This document shows positions 698-43,672 of a stretch of DNA of 64,000 nucleotides, in pieces. A program made the translations under genes and the position numbers. This DNA comes from Armatimonadota bacterium (GTDB lineage Bacteria; Armatimonadota; Fimbriimonadia; Fimbriimonadales; Fimbriimonadaceae), in the NCBI GenBank assembly GCA_018268315.1, contig JAFDWU010000001.1, forward strand, positions 900,324-964,323, written 5' to 3'. How positions within the stretch are numbered: position 1 is the first letter of the stretch; each line of letters begins with the position of its first letter. The notes beneath the pieces are model-generated. The model searched no databases. It was not told the DNA's origin and worked only from the letters and a program-made list of their open reading frames with translations.

Positions 698-1395
698 AGC
701 AATTGCTCCGCCAGCTTCGCTTCCTCTGCCCGCACGTACGGCTTCCGCTCCAAAAGGGAATCATAAACAGCGTAAATATCCGAAAGGGGCATTATTCGAT
801 GGTCATAGTGGTCCTCATACATCGACTTGACTCCGATATTGCCAAGACGAGGGATCGTATTGCGAAGCCCATCGACAGAGACTTTCCAAAACCAATCGCG
901 ATCAGTCACATCCTTGCCTCCAACGAAGGCGTTTGCAAGCCACATGTTACGCATAACTCCGAACACGGATGTCGTTACAAACCCGTCCTTCCGAGCAAAG
1001 AAGAAGTAGAGATAATGCGCTTCCTCCCTACCGCCGCGGTCCCTCATTACCGAAAGCAAGAGCACGCGCTCTCTCCCTGGTGGCACATGATGCTTCGCAT
1101 TAAAATGCGCAAAATCGTCGGTGCTAATCGAAAACCGCTTAGCCTTCGACACGAAAGGCTTCACCGTCATTTCGAGAATCTTCCCAACTTGTTCCTCGGT
1201 TAAGGTTGCTCGGTCCGCGGAGTCGAGATGCTCATAGACCTCATGTGTCTTGCAATCCAAAATGTCCTGGAGAAGTTGTTCGCTCGTAATCTGATTCTTG
1301 GGTGGATTGGCGGAACCAGCCAGGACCACGGCAACCATGATGATCATGGAGATACCGAGCAGTAAGGTAACACTCAGTTTATCGCGAAGGTTCAT
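685..1395 (-). CDS. Single-pass membrane protein, paralog 2 of a tandem array
   Basis: A 236-aa protein with an N-terminal hydrophobic anchor (about residues 8-27, signal-anchor or signal peptide) and a periplasmic-type domain. It aligns with its neighbours through the QVGKILEMTVKPF segment, a TTSVFG...MW hydrophobic segment and an MPLSD box near the C-terminus. It lies 18 bp downstream of paralog 3 and overlaps paralog 1. No enzymatic motif is visible. Function unknown; tandem duplication is the most economical explanation. Confidence 0.72.
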   Translation of the reverse strand: MNLRDKLSVTLLLGISMIIMVAVVLAGSANPPKNQITSEQLLQDILDCKTHEVYEHLDSADRATLTEEQVGKILEMTVKPFVSKAKRFSISTDDFAHFNAKHHVPPGRERVLLLSVMRDRGGREEAHYLYFFFARKDGFVTTSVFGVMRNMWLANAFVGGKDVTDRDWFWKVSVDGLRNTIPRLGNIGVKSMYEDHYDHRIMPLSDIYAVYDSLLERKPYVRAEEAKLAEQLLWGP

Positions 1396-1413
1396 GCTGT
1401 GCTCCGACGCACT

Positions 1414-2109
1414 TTATGATCCGGTTGCAAGGGTCTTGAAGTAGCCAAGGCAAGAATCAAGGCTCATAAGATGCGCATCCGGCCTTGCCGGATCGATTGA
1501 GTAAACCCCAAGTTGCTTGTACTGAGGAAAGTCCTGCTCCATACCTTTGATACAAGCTCGATAACCCTCCTCATTTGTCTTGATTGATTCACCACGGCAA
1601 ATCGCCCTGCCAAGCCATGATGTGTAGAGTAAACCGAAAAGGCTGGTTCTTGGACCAAGGCGTGAGTCTTTTACGAACATTGTAAGTTCTAGCACCCGTT
1701 TCTCATTCGGATGCTTGAAGTTGATCAGATAGTTCGCGCTTCCTTCTCCCAACCCATCGTCCGTTATCGGCTTATTTGAAGTGCTGGAAAGTTTGGCGGC
1801 CCTGATTTCTGAGAGGAAGGGCCGGACTGTAATCCTGAAGATGCCGGCGAGTTGCTCTCTCGTAAGGCCGCTCTGAAGTTCCTCCGGTCGGATGAAGCTG
1901 TAAAAGCGATTTGAGTCCAGCTTTAGGACGTCATCCATCCGATCCTGCGCAACACGCGCGAAGTTTGGCGGCTCAAGTAAACGCCACCACGCAATTACCG
2001 CAAGAATGGCTAAAGCAATCCACAAGCCGGCTCGCAAAGTCGTGGAAGCGGCCAAGTTCCGTGGCTTACCCTTTGTGCCTATCTTCTTCGTGCTCCAGTC
2101 TCGCAGCAA
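1414..2109 (-). CDS. Single-pass membrane protein, paralog 3 of a tandem array
   Basis: A 231-aa protein with a basic N-terminus, one membrane segment at about residues 27-45 and a soluble domain. The core RMDDVLKLDSNRFYSFIRPE and TREQL...ITVRPF matches paralog 4 closely. The region from TSLFGLLYTSW to the final MSLDSC box is also shared. The listed TTG start overlaps the end of paralog 4 by 44 bp, so the true start may lie slightly further in. Function unknown. Confidence 0.7.
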   Translation of the reverse strand: MLRDWSTKKIGTKGKPRNLAASTTLRAGLWIALAILAVIAWWRLLEPPNFARVAQDRMDDVLKLDSNRFYSFIRPEELQSGLTREQLAGIFRITVRPFLSEIRAAKLSSTSNKPITDDGLGEGSANYLINFKHPNEKRVLELTMFVKDSRLGPRTSLFGLLYTSWLGRAICRGESIKTNEEGYRACIKGMEQDFPQYKQLGVYSIDPARPDAHLMSLDSCLGYFKTLATGS

Positions 2110-2749
2110 CTTGCTGATAGTAGGCTACACAGTCATCCAACGGCATGAGTCTGGAATGCTCGGCGATCGCATAGATCTTCGTAATGCCCGCCTCGGCATA
2201 CTTGGGAAAATCCTCCTTCATGCCCTCCACATACGCCCGATAATAGTCCGATCCCGGCTTTAACGTCTTGCCCGCAAGCATCGCTCTACCAGCCCAAACC
2301 TGGCAAAGAAGGCTAGATAGCGATGTCTGTGGCCCCTGGTTGCTATCCTTGACGAGCATGGAAAACCGCATCCTGAGTGATTCATGAGGAGGCTTGAAGT
2401 GAACCAAGTAATCCGACAACCCTTGACCCACAACAGAGGCATTCCCTGACTGCTGGCGCTGCTCGACCAGTTCCATCGACTCGACTTCATTCATGAACGG
2501 GCGGATCGACACGTTAAAGATAGTCGCCACCTGTGCTCGAGATAGTCCTTGCAGTTCGGAAGATCGAATATACCGGTAGAACGACTCTGAGTCAAGATTC
2601 TTGAGATCGTCGACCCGCTCGGCTGCTACTCCGCCATAGTCCACCGACCCAGTTCGTAAGTATGCAAATAGGAATAAGCTTGCCGCGACAATCCAGCATA
2701 CAGCGACAGCCGCATACTGCCTTTTATTCAGTCTTACTTTTACGACCAC
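2066..2749 (-). CDS. Single-pass membrane protein, paralog 4 of a tandem array
   Basis: A 227-aa protein starting with GTG, with an N-terminal membrane segment at about residues 11-31 and the same soluble domain as paralogs 1-3 (RVDDLKNLDSESFYRYIR, RAQVATIFNVSIRPF, LVKDSNQGPQTSL, MPLDDC). It is the first copy transcribed, 3 bp after the small Cys-rich protein gene. Paralogs 3 and 4 are the most similar pair, suggesting the most recent duplication. Function unknown. Confidence 0.72.
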   Translation of the reverse strand: MVVKVRLNKRQYAAVAVCWIVAASLFLFAYLRTGSVDYGGVAAERVDDLKNLDSESFYRYIRSSELQGLSRAQVATIFNVSIRPFMNEVESMELVEQRQQSGNASVVGQGLSDYLVHFKPPHESLRMRFSMLVKDSNQGPQTSLSSLLCQVWAGRAMLAGKTLKPGSDYYRAYVEGMKEDFPKYAEAGITKIYAIAEHSRLMPLDDCVAYYQQVAARLEHEEDRHKG

Positions 2750-2752
2750 TTC

Positions 2753-3007
2753 TTAATCTGTCGGACAACTGATCTTATTTATGCATGAAACCAGGCCCTG
2801 TTGGTAAGTAATACGATATTTTATCGTTCCATCCGGGCATGCATACTGCCAGGTGATGACGGAACAACACCCACCAGAATTATTGACGCACTTCTCCGAA
2901 AGCTGCGTAACAATTGCGCCAGTGCAGGGTATGTCATCGCTGGGGGAACAGGGGACTGCGAATGCAGTCATTACTAATGATAGAAGTGGTACCAAGTGAC
3001 TTTTCAT
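2753..3007 (-). CDS. Small secreted Cys-rich protein
   Basis: An 84-aa protein with an N-terminal signal peptide (about residues 1-20, ending near VPCSP). The mature part is about 65 residues with eight cysteines, including an adjacent CC pair, which suggests a disulfide-stapled exported peptide. It sits between the pseudopilin gene and the four-paralog array on the same strand with very short spacing. No known family is recognised. The signal peptide and cysteines are read directly; any role is unknown. Confidence 0.6.
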   Translation of the reverse strand: MKSHLVPLLSLVMTAFAVPCSPSDDIPCTGAIVTQLSEKCVNNSGGCCSVITWQYACPDGTIKYRITYQQGLVSCINKISCPTD

Positions 3008-3025
3008 GATTCTCCAGATTAAAGG

Positions 3026-3646
3026 TCAAAACTGCAATTCCTCCAGTTCGGCTACATTGCCGTACCCGTAGATGGAATGCACGACCTGATATTGTCCGCT
3101 AAGGCGGACAAAAGCGATTCTTTTGTTAATCCCACTCTGCAAGATTGGGACGTCGGGTGGGTTGTGGTTGAAGTCTAGGAAGATGATCGTGTTCTCGCGC
3201 TGCTTCTCCGATCGTGCCTTGAAGTAGCCTACGGTGTCGAATTCGGCAGGGAGCACGCCGTACTGATACTCGAAGCCACCTGCGTGAGGGGTGAGGCTTG
3301 CCATGCAGGTTCCTAATCCTGGAGCCCATGGAGTCGAAAAGACCACCTTGCCGTCCTTGTGACCGACAATGGTCGGCGTCGCCGGCAATCCCATCTGCAC
3401 CTGATCCCCATAGACGCCTTCTAGGTCGCGACTTGCTCGGTATATCTGGACAGAAGTGATGAGCTGCTTCAGATTTGAAGCGCACTGGGCCTTATAAGCG
3501 TCGTCTTTCGAAGTCGTGATCATGGGCAACATTAAAACCATAAGCAGGAAGATAATCGAAATGACACTGAGAAGCTCGAGGAGGGTAATGCCATAGTTCT
3601 TTGTTCTGTTATAACCACTACAACGAAATTTCACTTTGCTTGACAA
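3026..3646 (-). CDS. Type IV pilin-like pseudopilin
   Basis: A 206-aa protein with a class III prepilin signal: a basic leader, then YG cleaved before ITLLELLSVIS with the conserved Glu at +5, and a 20-residue hydrophobic helix. The globular part contains the QCASNLKQL stretch common in pseudopilins with a GxxxxH-type C-terminal domain (DUF1559-like H-X9-DG families), although the canonical C-terminal motif is not obvious here. The TTG start overlaps the 72-aa gene by 16 bp. Probably processed by a prepilin peptidase and inserted into a type II secretion or type IV pilus-like fibre. The assembly machinery is not in this window. Confidence 0.75.
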   Translation of the reverse strand: MSSKVKFRCSGYNRTKNYGITLLELLSVISIIFLLMVLMLPMITTSKDDAYKAQCASNLKQLITSVQIYRASRDLEGVYGDQVQMGLPATPTIVGHKDGKVVFSTPWAPGLGTCMASLTPHAGGFEYQYGVLPAEFDTVGYFKARSEKQRENTIIFLDFNHNPPDVPILQSGINKRIAFVRLSGQYQVVHSIYGYGNVAELEELQF

Positions 3647-40095: not shown

Positions 40096-40958
40096 ACACG
40101 AGCCGGCGTCATCGCCTTTTCGGCGGCTTCCACACAGTTGCTGAGCAAACTCGCGACCGTCATCGGTCCGACTCCACCCGGCACCGGAGTGATGTAACCA
40201 GCCACCTGCTGCGCGGTCTCAAACTCAACGTCGCCAACGTCGCCCTTGCGGCCCTCAACCTTGCTATAACCTGCGTCGATCACGATTGCGCCCGGCTTGA
40301 TCCAGTCTCCCTTAACATATTCCGGCCGGCCGATGGCGGCTACCACCACGTCAGCCTCTCGGCACAACTCGGGGAGCGATTGGGTTTTGCTGTGGGCAAT
40401 GGTGACGGTCGCATTCTTCTGCAGCAGCATAAGCGCGGCGGGCTTGCCAAGAATGACCGACCGCCCGATGACCAACGCGCGGCGACCAGTCACGTCCAAA
40501 TTGTAGTGCTCCAGAATTTTGATGATGCCAAGGGGGGTGGCGCAGCGAAAGCCTGGCAGATCGGCAGTCAATCGGCCAAGGGATTGCGGCGTGATGCCAT
40601 CAACGTCCTTTTGCGACCCAAGCGTCAGCAACGCCTCGTGCTCATCCAGGTGGCTTGGAAGCGGGTGCTGAATAAGGACGCCGTGCACTTCGGGGTTCTC
40701 GTTTAGCTCGCGAATCTTATCGATCAGCTGGGATTGGCTCCAAGAGCTGTCCACGTAGTAGGCCTGCCCGGTCATGCCCAGTTCTGCCGCCCACTTGTGC
40801 TTCATATTCACATAGGCGAGGCTGGACGGGTCTTGGGAGGCCACAAGGACATCAAGCCGAGGCGTGACTCCCCTGCTTCGCAGGGCGTCAACCCGAACCT
40901 TGAGCTGGTCGCGAATTGAGCGGCTAAGGGCCTTGCCGTCGAGAATAGTCGCGCTCAT
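40092..40958 (-). CDS. folD: Bifunctional methylenetetrahydrofolate dehydrogenase/cyclohydrolase
   Basis: Interconverts 5,10-methylene-THF and 10-formyl-THF in the cytoplasm. About 288 aa from the ATG at 40958, chosen for GGAGGA upstream and the ATGA overlap with nusB; the open frame to 41102 is antisense-like extension. Motifs: YVNMKHKWAAELGM with the catalytic Lys, QHPLPSHLDE, the NADP loop VIGRSVILGKPAALML and the closing PVPGGVGPMTVASLL. Complete and normal length. Confidence 0.96.
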   Translation of the reverse strand: MSATILDGKALSRSIRDQLKVRVDALRSRGVTPRLDVLVASQDPSSLAYVNMKHKWAAELGMTGQAYYVDSSWSQSQLIDKIRELNENPEVHGVLIQHPLPSHLDEHEALLTLGSQKDVDGITPQSLGRLTADLPGFRCATPLGIIKILEHYNLDVTGRRALVIGRSVILGKPAALMLLQKNATVTIAHSKTQSLPELCREADVVVAAIGRPEYVKGDWIKPGAIVIDAGYSKVEGRKGDVGDVEFETAQQVAGYITPVPGGVGPMTVASLLSNCVEAAEKAMTPARV

Positions 40959-41518
40959 GATGGGTCCTCCGCCCGGAGGCGCCAAGCGCCAATGCGGGCC
41001 AATTCTTGAATTCGCTCCTCGTCGGTAACGGTTTCCTCTTCGATTTCTTCTTCCGGCTCGATTTCCCGCTCTTCCTTCATCGTCTCCTGTTGCGGATCCC
41101 ACTGAGCCTTCGGCGAATCCTTCAGCACTTTGCCGAGAACGCCGTTCACGAACTTGCCGCTGTCGGCAGTTGAATACTTCTTCGCGATTTCAATCGCCTC
41201 GTCGATGCTCACCGCGGGCGGAACGCCAGGCATGTAAAGCAGCTCGTACGCGGCAATACGCATTACGTTCTTATCGACTACCGCGAGGCGATCAAGCTCC
41301 CAATCGATGAGAGCCGAGCGAAGTTTGGCGTCGATATCCGGCCTGTGCCGAAAGACCCCGGTTATCAAGCCTTCTGCAAACTCTTCAAGATCGGGCGGCA
41401 ACGCGGATTCCGCCATGACCTCTTCAAGGGCGTCCTCTAAAGGAACCTGCCCAATCTCCATCTCGTAAAGACAGCGCAAGGCCGCTTCGCGAGCCTTTCG
41501 GCGCGACTTAACTTGCAT
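40955..41518 (-). CDS. nusB: Transcription antitermination factor NusB
   Basis: 187 aa from the ATG at 41518 (a TTG two codons upstream is possible). The NusB helical fold is clear: SRRKAREAALRCLYEMEIG, LDRLAVVDKNVMRIAAYELL, and VSIDEAIEIAKKYSTADSGKFVNGVLGKV. It binds boxA RNA with S10 in rRNA transcription antitermination. The last 45 residues are an unusual acidic tail (EEREIEPEEEIEEETVTDEE) beyond the normal domain. It overlaps accC and folD. Confidence 0.95.
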   Translation of the reverse strand: MQVKSRRKAREAALRCLYEMEIGQVPLEDALEEVMAESALPPDLEEFAEGLITGVFRHRPDIDAKLRSALIDWELDRLAVVDKNVMRIAAYELLYMPGVPPAVSIDEAIEIAKKYSTADSGKFVNGVLGKVLKDSPKAQWDPQQETMKEEREIEPEEEIEEETVTDEERIQELARIGAWRLRAEDPS

Positions 41519-42872
41519 AGACAAGCGATTCCTCCAGCATCTTGGGGACGAAGCTGGTGTCGATGTCTCCCGAAACGAACTTTGGATGGGCGACCATCTT
41601 GCGCAAGAAGGAAATGTTGGTGAGGATGCCCTCCACCTGAAATTCGTGAAGCGCCGTCGCGAGTTTTTCGACCGCCTGCTGGCGCGTCGGCGCGGTAACG
41701 ATCACCTTCGCAAGCATGGGGTCGTAATACGGGCTCACTGTGAAACCCGCATAGCAGTGGGTGTCCATCCGCACACCTCTCCCGCCTGGAGCGTTCCAGA
41801 CCGTGATCTTGCCGGAGCTTGGTGCGAAATCGCGGTCGGGGTCCTGCGCGGTAATGCGCGCCTCGATCGCATGGCCCTTAAGCTCAATATCACGCTGTGT
41901 AAACGGCAGCTTTTCCCCGGCGGCTATGCGAATTTGGAGTTGAACGAGGTCGACGTCAGTTACTTGCTCGGTAACCGGATGCTCAACCTGCAAGCGAGTG
42001 TTCATCTCGAGGAAGTAGAACTTCTCGTCCTTGGTCACGAGGAACTCAACCGTCCCCGCATTCGTGTAGCCAACATGCTTGGCAACCTTTACTGCCGAGT
42101 CGCCCATCGCCTTGCGGAGCCTTGGCGACATCAACGCATACGGCGCTTCTTCAATAATTTTCTGATGGCGTACAGTTTGAGCCGAGCACTCGCGCTCGCC
42201 CAAGTACACGACATTCTTAAACGAGTCCCCCATCACCTGCACTTCAACGTGCCGAGGTTCAACAACGTATTTCTCGACGATCAACTCGCCGCTTCCAAAG
42301 CTTGCCTGAGCTTCGGATTGCGCAAGCTTCCAATTTGAGACAAGCTCCTCAGCCGAGTCGACTCGGCGGATGCCGCGTCCTCCGCCACCCGCCACTGCCT
42401 TAAGCAATACGGGATAGCCGATCCCCTCCGCCAGTTTGACGGCCTCCTGCTCATTGGCAACCGGGCCAGATGAACCGGGGACTACCGGGCAGCCAACCTT
42501 AATTGCCACCGCTTTGGCTTTGGCTTTGTCGCCCATGGCTTCAATTGCGTCGGGGGGTGGGCCGATAAAGGTGATGCCCAGCGACTTCAGGGCTTCGGCA
42601 AAGTTTGCCCGCTCGCTGAAGTAACCGTAACCCGGGTGAACTGCCTCTGCGCCCGATATCTGAACCGCCATGAGAACGTTTGCAAGGTTGAGATAGCTGT
42701 CAGAGTTGGAGCCTGCGCCTACGCAGATGGCTTCATCGGCGATCTTTACGTGCAACGAATCGCGATCCGCCTCCGAATAGATGGCGACGCTCTTGATGCC
42801 CATCTCTCGACAAGCGCGCGCGACTCGACACGAAATTTCTCCGCGATTGGCAATTAGAATCTTCTTGAACAT
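41508..42872 (-). CDS. accC: Acetyl-CoA carboxylase, biotin carboxylase subunit
   Basis: A 454-aa ATP-grasp enzyme that carboxylates biotin carried on AccB. The start MFKKILIANRGEISCRVARA, the glycine-rich loop VLLKAVAGGGGRGIRRV, and the metal/biotin site FLEMNTRLQVEHPVTEQVT are all intact, and the length is normal. It follows the small TM protein by 3 bp and the AccB-like gene. The AccB-like partner here lacks the biotin lysine, so the true carrier is probably elsewhere. Confidence 0.97.
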   Translation of the reverse strand: MFKKILIANRGEISCRVARACREMGIKSVAIYSEADRDSLHVKIADEAICVGAGSNSDSYLNLANVLMAVQISGAEAVHPGYGYFSERANFAEALKSLGITFIGPPPDAIEAMGDKAKAKAVAIKVGCPVVPGSSGPVANEQEAVKLAEGIGYPVLLKAVAGGGGRGIRRVDSAEELVSNWKLAQSEAQASFGSGELIVEKYVVEPRHVEVQVMGDSFKNVVYLGERECSAQTVRHQKIIEEAPYALMSPRLRKAMGDSAVKVAKHVGYTNAGTVEFLVTKDEKFYFLEMNTRLQVEHPVTEQVTDVDLVQLQIRIAAGEKLPFTQRDIELKGHAIEARITAQDPDRDFAPSSGKITVWNAPGGRGVRMDTHCYAGFTVSPYYDPMLAKVIVTAPTRQQAVEKLATALHEFQVEGILTNISFLRKMVAHPKFVSGDIDTSFVPKMLEESLVYAS

Positions 42873-42875
42873 CGT

Positions 42876-43268
42876 TTAGTAACCGCCGTGCCCAGGATGC
42901 GGACAATACACCCTGCCGGTTTGAGGATCATACACATAAGGCTCGTGGCCAACCGGACAAGACATGATGGAGGCGGGCGCCCGCATCTCACCCAGGTCTC
43001 GCGGTGGCTCATCGCTCGAAGTGCGAGCTACGGAAATGATTTGGCGAAGCTGATTTAGGTTGCTTTTGCACACTTCGTCCTTAGCGGAAACCATCGCGCC
43101 GCCCATCACCGTGGTGCCCTGCCCGTCGGGCCTTGCCGATGGGGGTGGGGCAGAGGTTGGGGCCACGGATGTCGCGGTACCGCGCTCCTGCACCACCATG
43201 ATGATGAGAATGATGACAACTGCGGCCAGAAGGATCAGCAGGGCAAAGCCGCCGCGCTTTCGCTTCAT
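42876..43268 (-). CDS. Small membrane-anchored protein between accB-like and accC
   Basis: A 130-aa protein with one N-terminal membrane helix (about 8-26), a Pro/Ser/Ala-rich linker (about 30-55) and a C-terminal domain with CKSNLNQLRQIISVA, PASIMSCPVGHEPYVYDPQTGRVYCPHPGH. The last part resembles the Cys/His end of some pseudopilin-like proteins (peptide-bond-rich YDPxTGxVxCPHPGH). It overlaps the AccB-like gene by 4 bp. Function unknown. Confidence 0.65.
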   Translation of the reverse strand: MKRKRGGFALLILLAAVVIILIIMVVQERGTATSVAPTSAPPPSARPDGQGTTVMGGAMVSAKDEVCKSNLNQLRQIISVARTSSDEPPRDLGEMRAPASIMSCPVGHEPYVYDPQTGRVYCPHPGHGGY

Positions 43269-43672
43269 GCGCCCGCCTTTACGAAGGCGACTACCTGGCC
43301 AAATTCCACCGGATCGCCATCCTTAACCAAAATCTCGATGACCTCGCCTTCCACGCCTGCTTCAACGTCGTTCTCGATTCCAAGAGTCTGCACACGTCCA
43401 ACAACGTCTTGAGGGCCAACAAACTGACCAACCTTAAGGGGTTCTTTTCCTGATTGGAAGTATCCGACGTGCCGAGCCTTGATCATGAGATTGCCGTCTG
43501 CGGCAGTCGATTCCTTTGAAATGGCGGCCAGCGGGCTCTTTGCCGGTTTCTTTTGAGGCTCCAAGGTAGCGCTGAAGACGCCCTCGCCGACTTCGAGCTC
43601 GACTCGGTAGTAAGAGCGATCCCTCGCCGTCATCAATGCGTGGCGAACCAATTCAGATTCGAGTCCGGCCAT
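43265..43672 (-). CDS. AccB-like biotinyl domain protein lacking the biotin lysine
   Basis: A 135-aa protein. The C-terminal 75 residues match the biotinyl/lipoyl fold (ARHVGYFQSGKEPLKVGQFV, VEAGVEGEVIEILVKDGDPVEFGQ). At the tip turn where biotin carriers have EAMKM, this protein has Gln95-Thr-Leu-Gly98-Ile, so the acceptor lysine is replaced by glycine; I checked the DNA (CAG ACT CTT GGA ATC). It heads the operon with accC. Comparable lysine-less proteins (BADC in plants) damp acetyl-CoA carboxylase, so a regulatory or structural role is possible, by analogy. Confidence 0.85.
   Translation of the reverse strand: MAGLESELVRHALMTARDRSYYRVELEVGEGVFSATLEPQKKPAKSPLAAISKESTAADGNLMIKARHVGYFQSGKEPLKVGQFVGPQDVVGRVQTLGIENDVEAGVEGEVIEILVKDGDPVEFGQVVAFVKAGA

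Follow-up and report, generated by a model that had tools for sequence, protein, structure and literature searches.

Acetyl-CoA carboxylase (ACC) catalyzes the step by which carbon is committed to fatty acids; look-alikes of its BCCP subunit that have no catalytic role have so far been treated as a plant feature. The window, a 64,000-nucleotide stretch of an Armatimonadota genome of the family Fimbriimonadaceae (contig JAFDWU010000001.1, positions 900,324 to 964,323), raises the question of what an AccB-like protein does when the lysine that accepts biotin is gone. The initial annotation had described such a protein, and its reading frame was confirmed on the minus strand, which that annotation had left unstated, together with the QTLGI tip and the glycine in place of the lysine; we refer to it as AccB2 (Table 1). 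The tip reads V-Q-T-L-G-I-E-N-D, and in the K column of an alignment of 258 distinct BCCP-like proteins Gly98 (codon GGA, 43381-43379, minus strand) occupies the position of the biotinyl lysine of AccB. No lysine lies within 5 residues of Gly98, and the tip lysine of a functional carrier (E-x-M-K-x) is absent from the window protein and from every family member read. With the acceptor lysine missing and the thumb shortened, the window AccB2 is predicted to be incapable of serving as a biotin carrier.

The protein is otherwise recognizable as a BCCP. It matched Pfam Biotin_lipoyl (PF00364) with 28.8 bits, exceeding the cut-off of 22.1, and TIGR00531 with 45.3 bits, under the curated cut-off of 115.2; the latter shortfall is not decisive, because the true AccB1 of the same genome, at 90 bits, is under the cut-off as well. 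AlphaFold2 predicted a helix (residues 6-18), two β-strands forming a hairpin (23-28 and 31-36), a disordered linker and a barrel (61-133), the N-terminal half being modeled with moderate confidence only (pLDDT 66-79). The best PDB matches of the predicted fold were E. coli apo-BCCP 1a6x, 1bdo and 4hr7, with TM scores (by target) of 0.82 against 1bdo and 0.85 against 4hr7, which supports the barrel fold.

Table 1. Features of the AccB2 locus, in window coordinates
Feature	Position	Strand	Basis or remark
nusB, overlaps accC	40955..41524	minus	TIGR01951, 142.7 bits
accC, biotin carboxylase, catalytic motif EMNTRLQVEH intact	41508..42872	minus	TIGR00514, 633 bits, over cut-off; the genome's only ACC-type biotin carboxylase
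Type IV pilin-like gene between accB2 and accC (130 aa, single TM, Cys-containing)	42876..43268	minus	No family match in a Pfam and NCBIfam search
accB2, lysine-less AccB paralogue (135 aa)	43265..43672	minus	ORF; PF00364 and TIGR00531 matches; predicted BCCP fold
Biotinyl-type barrel, residues 61-133	43274..43492	minus	Predicted, pLDDT about 90 over most of length
Biotinyl hairpin tip, QTLGI replacing E-A-M-K-x	43376..43390	minus	Translation; K column of aligned proteins
Shortened thumb segment, 11 residues between Gly70 and Gly82 versus 16 in every AccB1	43430..43462	minus	Segment lengths, 258 proteins
N-terminal helix and β-hairpin, residues 6-36, through which BCCPs attach to biotin carboxylase	43565..43657	minus	AlphaFold2 secondary structure; hairpin role from PMC11077971

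Among the relatives, 51 of 61 genomes carry a homologue of AccB2. Conservation of the glycine had been proposed as a check, and it held: every Fimbriimonadaceae AccB2 read has Gly at the lysine position, usually within A-L-G-[LI]-x-N-[DE], and none has Lys, so that the residue is fixed over about 30 genera. Because the glycine recurs in every one of these homologues, Gly98 is neither chance nor a sequencing error; a pseudogene was likewise rejected, given this conservation across genera and a low dN/dS. Of the 61 genomes, 57 yielded a stand-alone AccB1, with E-A-M-K wherever it was fetched (E-A-N-K once). Profile searches found neither AccB1 nor AccB2 in two members of the window's family whose genomes are reduced to 1.5 Mb (G028 and G190), and the one biotin carboxylase of G028 has a longer frame resembling the second, non-ACC type; these two may lack this ACC altogether.

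The rest of the host genome (2.8 Mb, listed as 100% complete) bears directly on whether AccB2 could be its only AccB. A Pfam search located a second AccB-like gene, AccB1, at C1:305417, with the motif EAMKFFNEI and a full thumb; the true accB that the initial annotation had asked for elsewhere in the genome is thus present, and AccB2 as the sole AccB was rejected. The genome also encodes AccA, biotin ligase, a separate acyl-CoA-carboxylase-type carrier (C1:414323) and E2-type lipoyl proteins. Two biotin carboxylases (BC) were found: the accC of the AccB2 operon and a second one, adjacent to an enoyl-CoA hydratase homologue, that resembles a methylcrotonyl-CoA carboxylase (MCC) subunit. Since AccB1, AccA, biotin ligase and an ACC-type AccC are present, the host is, as far as these four parts go, equipped for a heteromeric ACC with AccB1 as its carrier, and AccB2 is extra. 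In two relatives (G008 and G036) the copy beside AccB2 is the only BC detected and therefore must serve AccB1.

The spacing of the genes indicates a compact minus-strand operon accB2 - pilin-like gene - accC - nusB: the pilin-like gene shares 4 bases (ATGA) with accB2, only 3 bases separate its end from the start of accC, and nusB is probably on the same transcript as accC. The claim that AccB2 is co-operonic with accC is therefore upheld for a shared compact cassette, with the qualification that the 130-aa pilin-like gene intervenes. This three-gene cassette holds nearly all of the relatives' AccB2 genes and is conserved over the order and in much of the phylum; in most Armatimonadota read, the pilin-like gene separates accB2 from accC. 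Location in the acc operon is not a fixed property, since AccB2 does not adjoin accC in two related families, f2 and f3. There, AccB2 with Gly sits away from accC (L107, L110 and L115-L117 in f2; L104 in f3); the f3 copy has the pilin-like gene as its neighbor as before but lies some 45 kb from the single BC detected. Two features of the neighbors were seen in passing. Several members of the pilin-like protein have a G-F-x-L-x-E-type N-terminus, and one TM segment and conserved C..NL.Q.R, CPvg and Y.YdP.tG.V.C.hpgH motifs were observed. AccC has a one-residue insertion in its active-site stretch (ECSxQ-[NT]-x-RHQK versus the usual SxQRRHQK), in the window and in many Armatimonadota loci, with or without Lys in AccB2.

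Across the phylum, profile searches found AccB2-like genes in 148 and AccB1-like genes in 147 of 151 Armatimonadota genomes, and outside the order the regions fetched and read numbered about 80 for AccB2 and some 40 for AccB1. Beside accC, AccB2 varies by family: some families keep Lys (often within E-S-M-K-L-M-N-D), and the others show Gly, Arg, His, Asn, Asp, Thr or Ser. The distinct proteins comprise 103 non-Lys and 31 Lys AccB2 and 99 AccB1, all with Lys, under a division by profile score, synteny and lysine state in which the script assigns any non-Lys protein to AccB2; independently of this sorting rule, Lys was read at every locus that the AccB1 searches brought in. Where AccB2 is non-Lys and both copies were read, AccB1 has Lys in 77 of 77 genomes, the AccB2 residue being Gly in 56, Arg in 13, His in 3, Thr in 2, Asn in 2 and Asp in 1. 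In lineages that keep the lysine, AccB2 may still carry biotin. In some of the Arg and Gly variants the residue next after the acceptor position is Lys (e.g., EALRKLT, EALGKWT), and these can be regarded as putative non-carriers with less certainty. A degenerate AccC was rejected, as nearly all Armatimonadota AccC stretches covering the catalytic motif retain EMN-x-R-x-QVEH or a close variant. One locus (L114, genome G054) with a Lys AccB beside accC fell outside Armatimonadota in the AccC tree; it is probably contamination or transfer and was left out of the counts.

Lysine was lost repeatedly. Mapped on AccC trees, the state changed between Lys and non-Lys at least 13 times in the careful tree (at least 13-14 over the AccC trees) and 15 times if losses only are allowed; over 300 bootstrap AccC trees the minimum was 11, with 12-13 at 5-95%. 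The residue at the acceptor position changed at least 21 times. Well-supported splits inside single families show that the losses are independent: Arg/Lys in f12, Ser/Lys in f19, and Arg and Asn/Lys in f24. In f4, the nearest tree relative of f1 and f5, the motif ESLTLMNEI is close to the lysine-keeping ESMKLMNEI. This recurrence across a phylum is a wider phenomenon than the single locus that the initial annotation described.

Other phyla gave a different picture. Among accC-linked AccB proteins, a Bacillota sample plus one genome each from several further groups gave 58 with Lys and only 2 without, both from Armatimonadota, while a Planctomycetota sample with one small phylum gave 42 Lys and 1 Ser. 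Since the other phyla yielded 58 Lys to 0 non-Lys and 42 Lys to 1 Ser, our reading of the K column is not prone to spurious losses. A lysine-less AccC-linked AccB was not seen as a general bacterial feature in the sampled phyla, a set drawn outside Chloroflexota, Cyanobacteriota and other neighbors. The one serine case (L379, Planctomycetota G316, 709-3257) lies in an efp - accB - accC operon in which AccC is without the catalytic EMNTR motif, so that a pseudo-carrier is paired with a pseudo-carboxylase.

What AccB2 has lost goes beyond the lysine. All 99 distinct AccB1 have a thumb segment of 16 residues, as do 23 of the 24 AccB from other phyla, whereas in most AccB2, with or without Lys, the segment is 8-11 residues long. 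A clean correlation of thumb loss with lysine loss was rejected, most lysine-keeping AccB2 being short-thumbed too. PMC10863985 cites a 2001 report by Cronan that the thumb is essential to the function of E. coli BCCP, and itself contains a model that puts the thumb at the biotin ligase interface. On these grounds AccB2 seems to have lost carrier-specific features first and the lysine, repeatedly, later. The N-terminal region was retained, as seen in the alignment and in the predicted helix and hairpin. The dN/dS ratio was 0.04-0.33 for close pairs of AccB2 without Lys and 0.04-0.25 for AccB1; purifying selection on AccB2 shows that it has a function, not which one.

We think it fairly likely that AccB2 is a non-catalytic BCCP paralogue that would help to build or tune the AccC-AccB1 subcomplex. 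The stand-alone AccB1, with its lysine and thumb, would shuttle the carboxyl between AccC and AccA/AccD, and AccB2, made together with AccC, would be relieved of carrying carboxybiotin. It may bind AccC through its N-terminal hairpin, perhaps forming mixed barrels with AccB1, and would occupy places in the complex meant for carriers while bearing no biotin itself, in the manner of plant BADC, the net effect being assembly or tuning and not inhibition. A precedent exists in BC1 of Chloroflexus aurantiacus, in which four N-terminal hairpins form a barrel joining two BC dimers; this barrel is needed for the tetramer and for full activity, and is unaffected by removal of the biotinyl core (PMC11077971). 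Because the barrel is independent of the biotinyl core, it offers a concrete way for a biotin-free carrier to stay useful.

The same anatomy, with the AccC-binding region kept and the acceptor lysine gone, would also suit an inhibitor. AccB2 would then compete for AccC with biotinylated AccB1, and ACC activity would fall in proportion to the AccB2 present. In vivo plant work cited in PMC11926652 supports inhibition by BADC. We regard an inhibitory AccB2 as unlikely. AccB2 is encoded with AccC and the real carrier elsewhere, which would probably set AccB2 at a fixed ratio to AccC, an odd arrangement for a dose-tuned brake. Moreover, the loss of the thumb and the synteny are common to lineages whose AccB2 has Lys, and the copy was therefore specialized before it could have acted as a dead-end competitor. 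This evidence argues mildly against an inhibitor, and an assembly subunit is the better fit.

Many independent losses to different residues resemble relaxed constraint at the site, as if AccB1 had taken over and AccB2, freed of the need for its lysine, were a dispensable remnant in slow decay. We give this little credence: AccB2 is uninterrupted in nearly all genomes of the phylum, its dN/dS is far below 1 and similar to that of AccB1, glycine is fixed over the genera of the window's family, and the whole-domain fold is predicted to be kept, so that relaxation is limited to the lysine and the thumb. Equally improbable is a partnership with the membrane pilin-like protein that would, for example, tether ACC or AccC at the membrane. 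The position of the pilin-like gene in most Armatimonadota read speaks for it, as does the membrane docking of ACC in plant plastids described in PMC7712654; by the charge rule, however, the pilin-like protein is N-in and would lie mostly outside the cytoplasm, and such linkage may reflect chance of operon history. Modification of AccB2 at some other residue, with its carrier role retained, is hardly credible. The variants with Lys one residue past the acceptor position would allow it, but the window AccB2 and most Gly variants are without a tip lysine. Biotin ligase reportedly requires Lys at the exact hairpin position, a finding attributed to Reche et al. in 1998, which also counts against it.

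On the preferred reading, as an assembly or tuning subunit, AccB2 could belong to a broader pattern, for and against which we see equal weight: a phylum-wide ACC with two kinds of carrier, one biotinylated and one thumb-reduced, often lysine-less and made with AccC, would form a hetero-oligomeric BC-BCCP core in which non-catalytic subunits set assembly and activity, the BADC principle having arisen in bacteria repeatedly, each time independently. Sister lineages that keep or lack the lysine in the protein encoded beside accC provide a natural series in which to ask whether such a subunit is assembly glue or a brake, and why the true carrier retains thumb and lysine while its twin loses both. 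AccB2 is relevant, too, to the dispute over the stoichiometry of BC-BCCP complexes and their oligomeric state.

The closest comparison is with the BADC (biotin/lipoyl attachment domain-containing) proteins of plants. Arabidopsis BADC1-3 are BCCP paralogues without the AMKL biotinylation motif that bind BC and BCCP; reconstitution and genetics favor a role as assembly 'glue' alongside the older inhibitor view, and non-catalytic subunits of this type have been called unique to the plant enzyme (PMC11926652). A search of open-licence papers found no published bacterial BADC-like or lysine-less BCCP, and the lysine-less carrier of Armatimonadota is probably a kind of subunit so far described only in plants. 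The BADC analogy drawn in the initial annotation holds for the anatomy: like BADC, AccB2 has no biotinylation motif, keeps the fold and the N-terminal assembly region, and coexists with a true BCCP of a heteromeric ACC, the missing motif and the true BCCP being found together in all 77 genomes and, likewise, in the host. The analogy does not extend to ACC inhibition, of which nothing in the sequence gives a sign. AccB2 differs from BADC in being bacterial, in at least 11-13 independent lysine losses within one phylum, in being encoded with accC and in its mostly deleted thumb; direct binding was demonstrated for BADC, whereas AccB2, known here from sequence and model, would bind by analogy. 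The repeated loss of Lys within Armatimonadota makes an independent origin likely and common descent with BADC unlikely, and as the likeness lies in sequence-level features, we do not name AccB2 a BADC.

Among bacterial proteins, AccB2 shares with AccB/BCCP (TIGR00531; E. coli 1bdo, 4hr7) the fold, the N-terminal region and the accC-adjacent operon position, and differs in its missing acceptor lysine and shortened thumb. The epsilon subunits of actinobacterial acyl-CoA carboxylases are not known to be BCCP homologues. They resemble the role proposed for AccB2 in being non-catalytic bacterial assembly subunits (PMC11926652). In Chloroflexus BC1, a fused BC-BCCP, the N-terminal BCCP hairpin alone can organize BC oligomers (PMC11077971), as we propose for AccB2, but the BCCP domain of BC1, unlike AccB2, has an intact EAMKM motif and is biotinylated.
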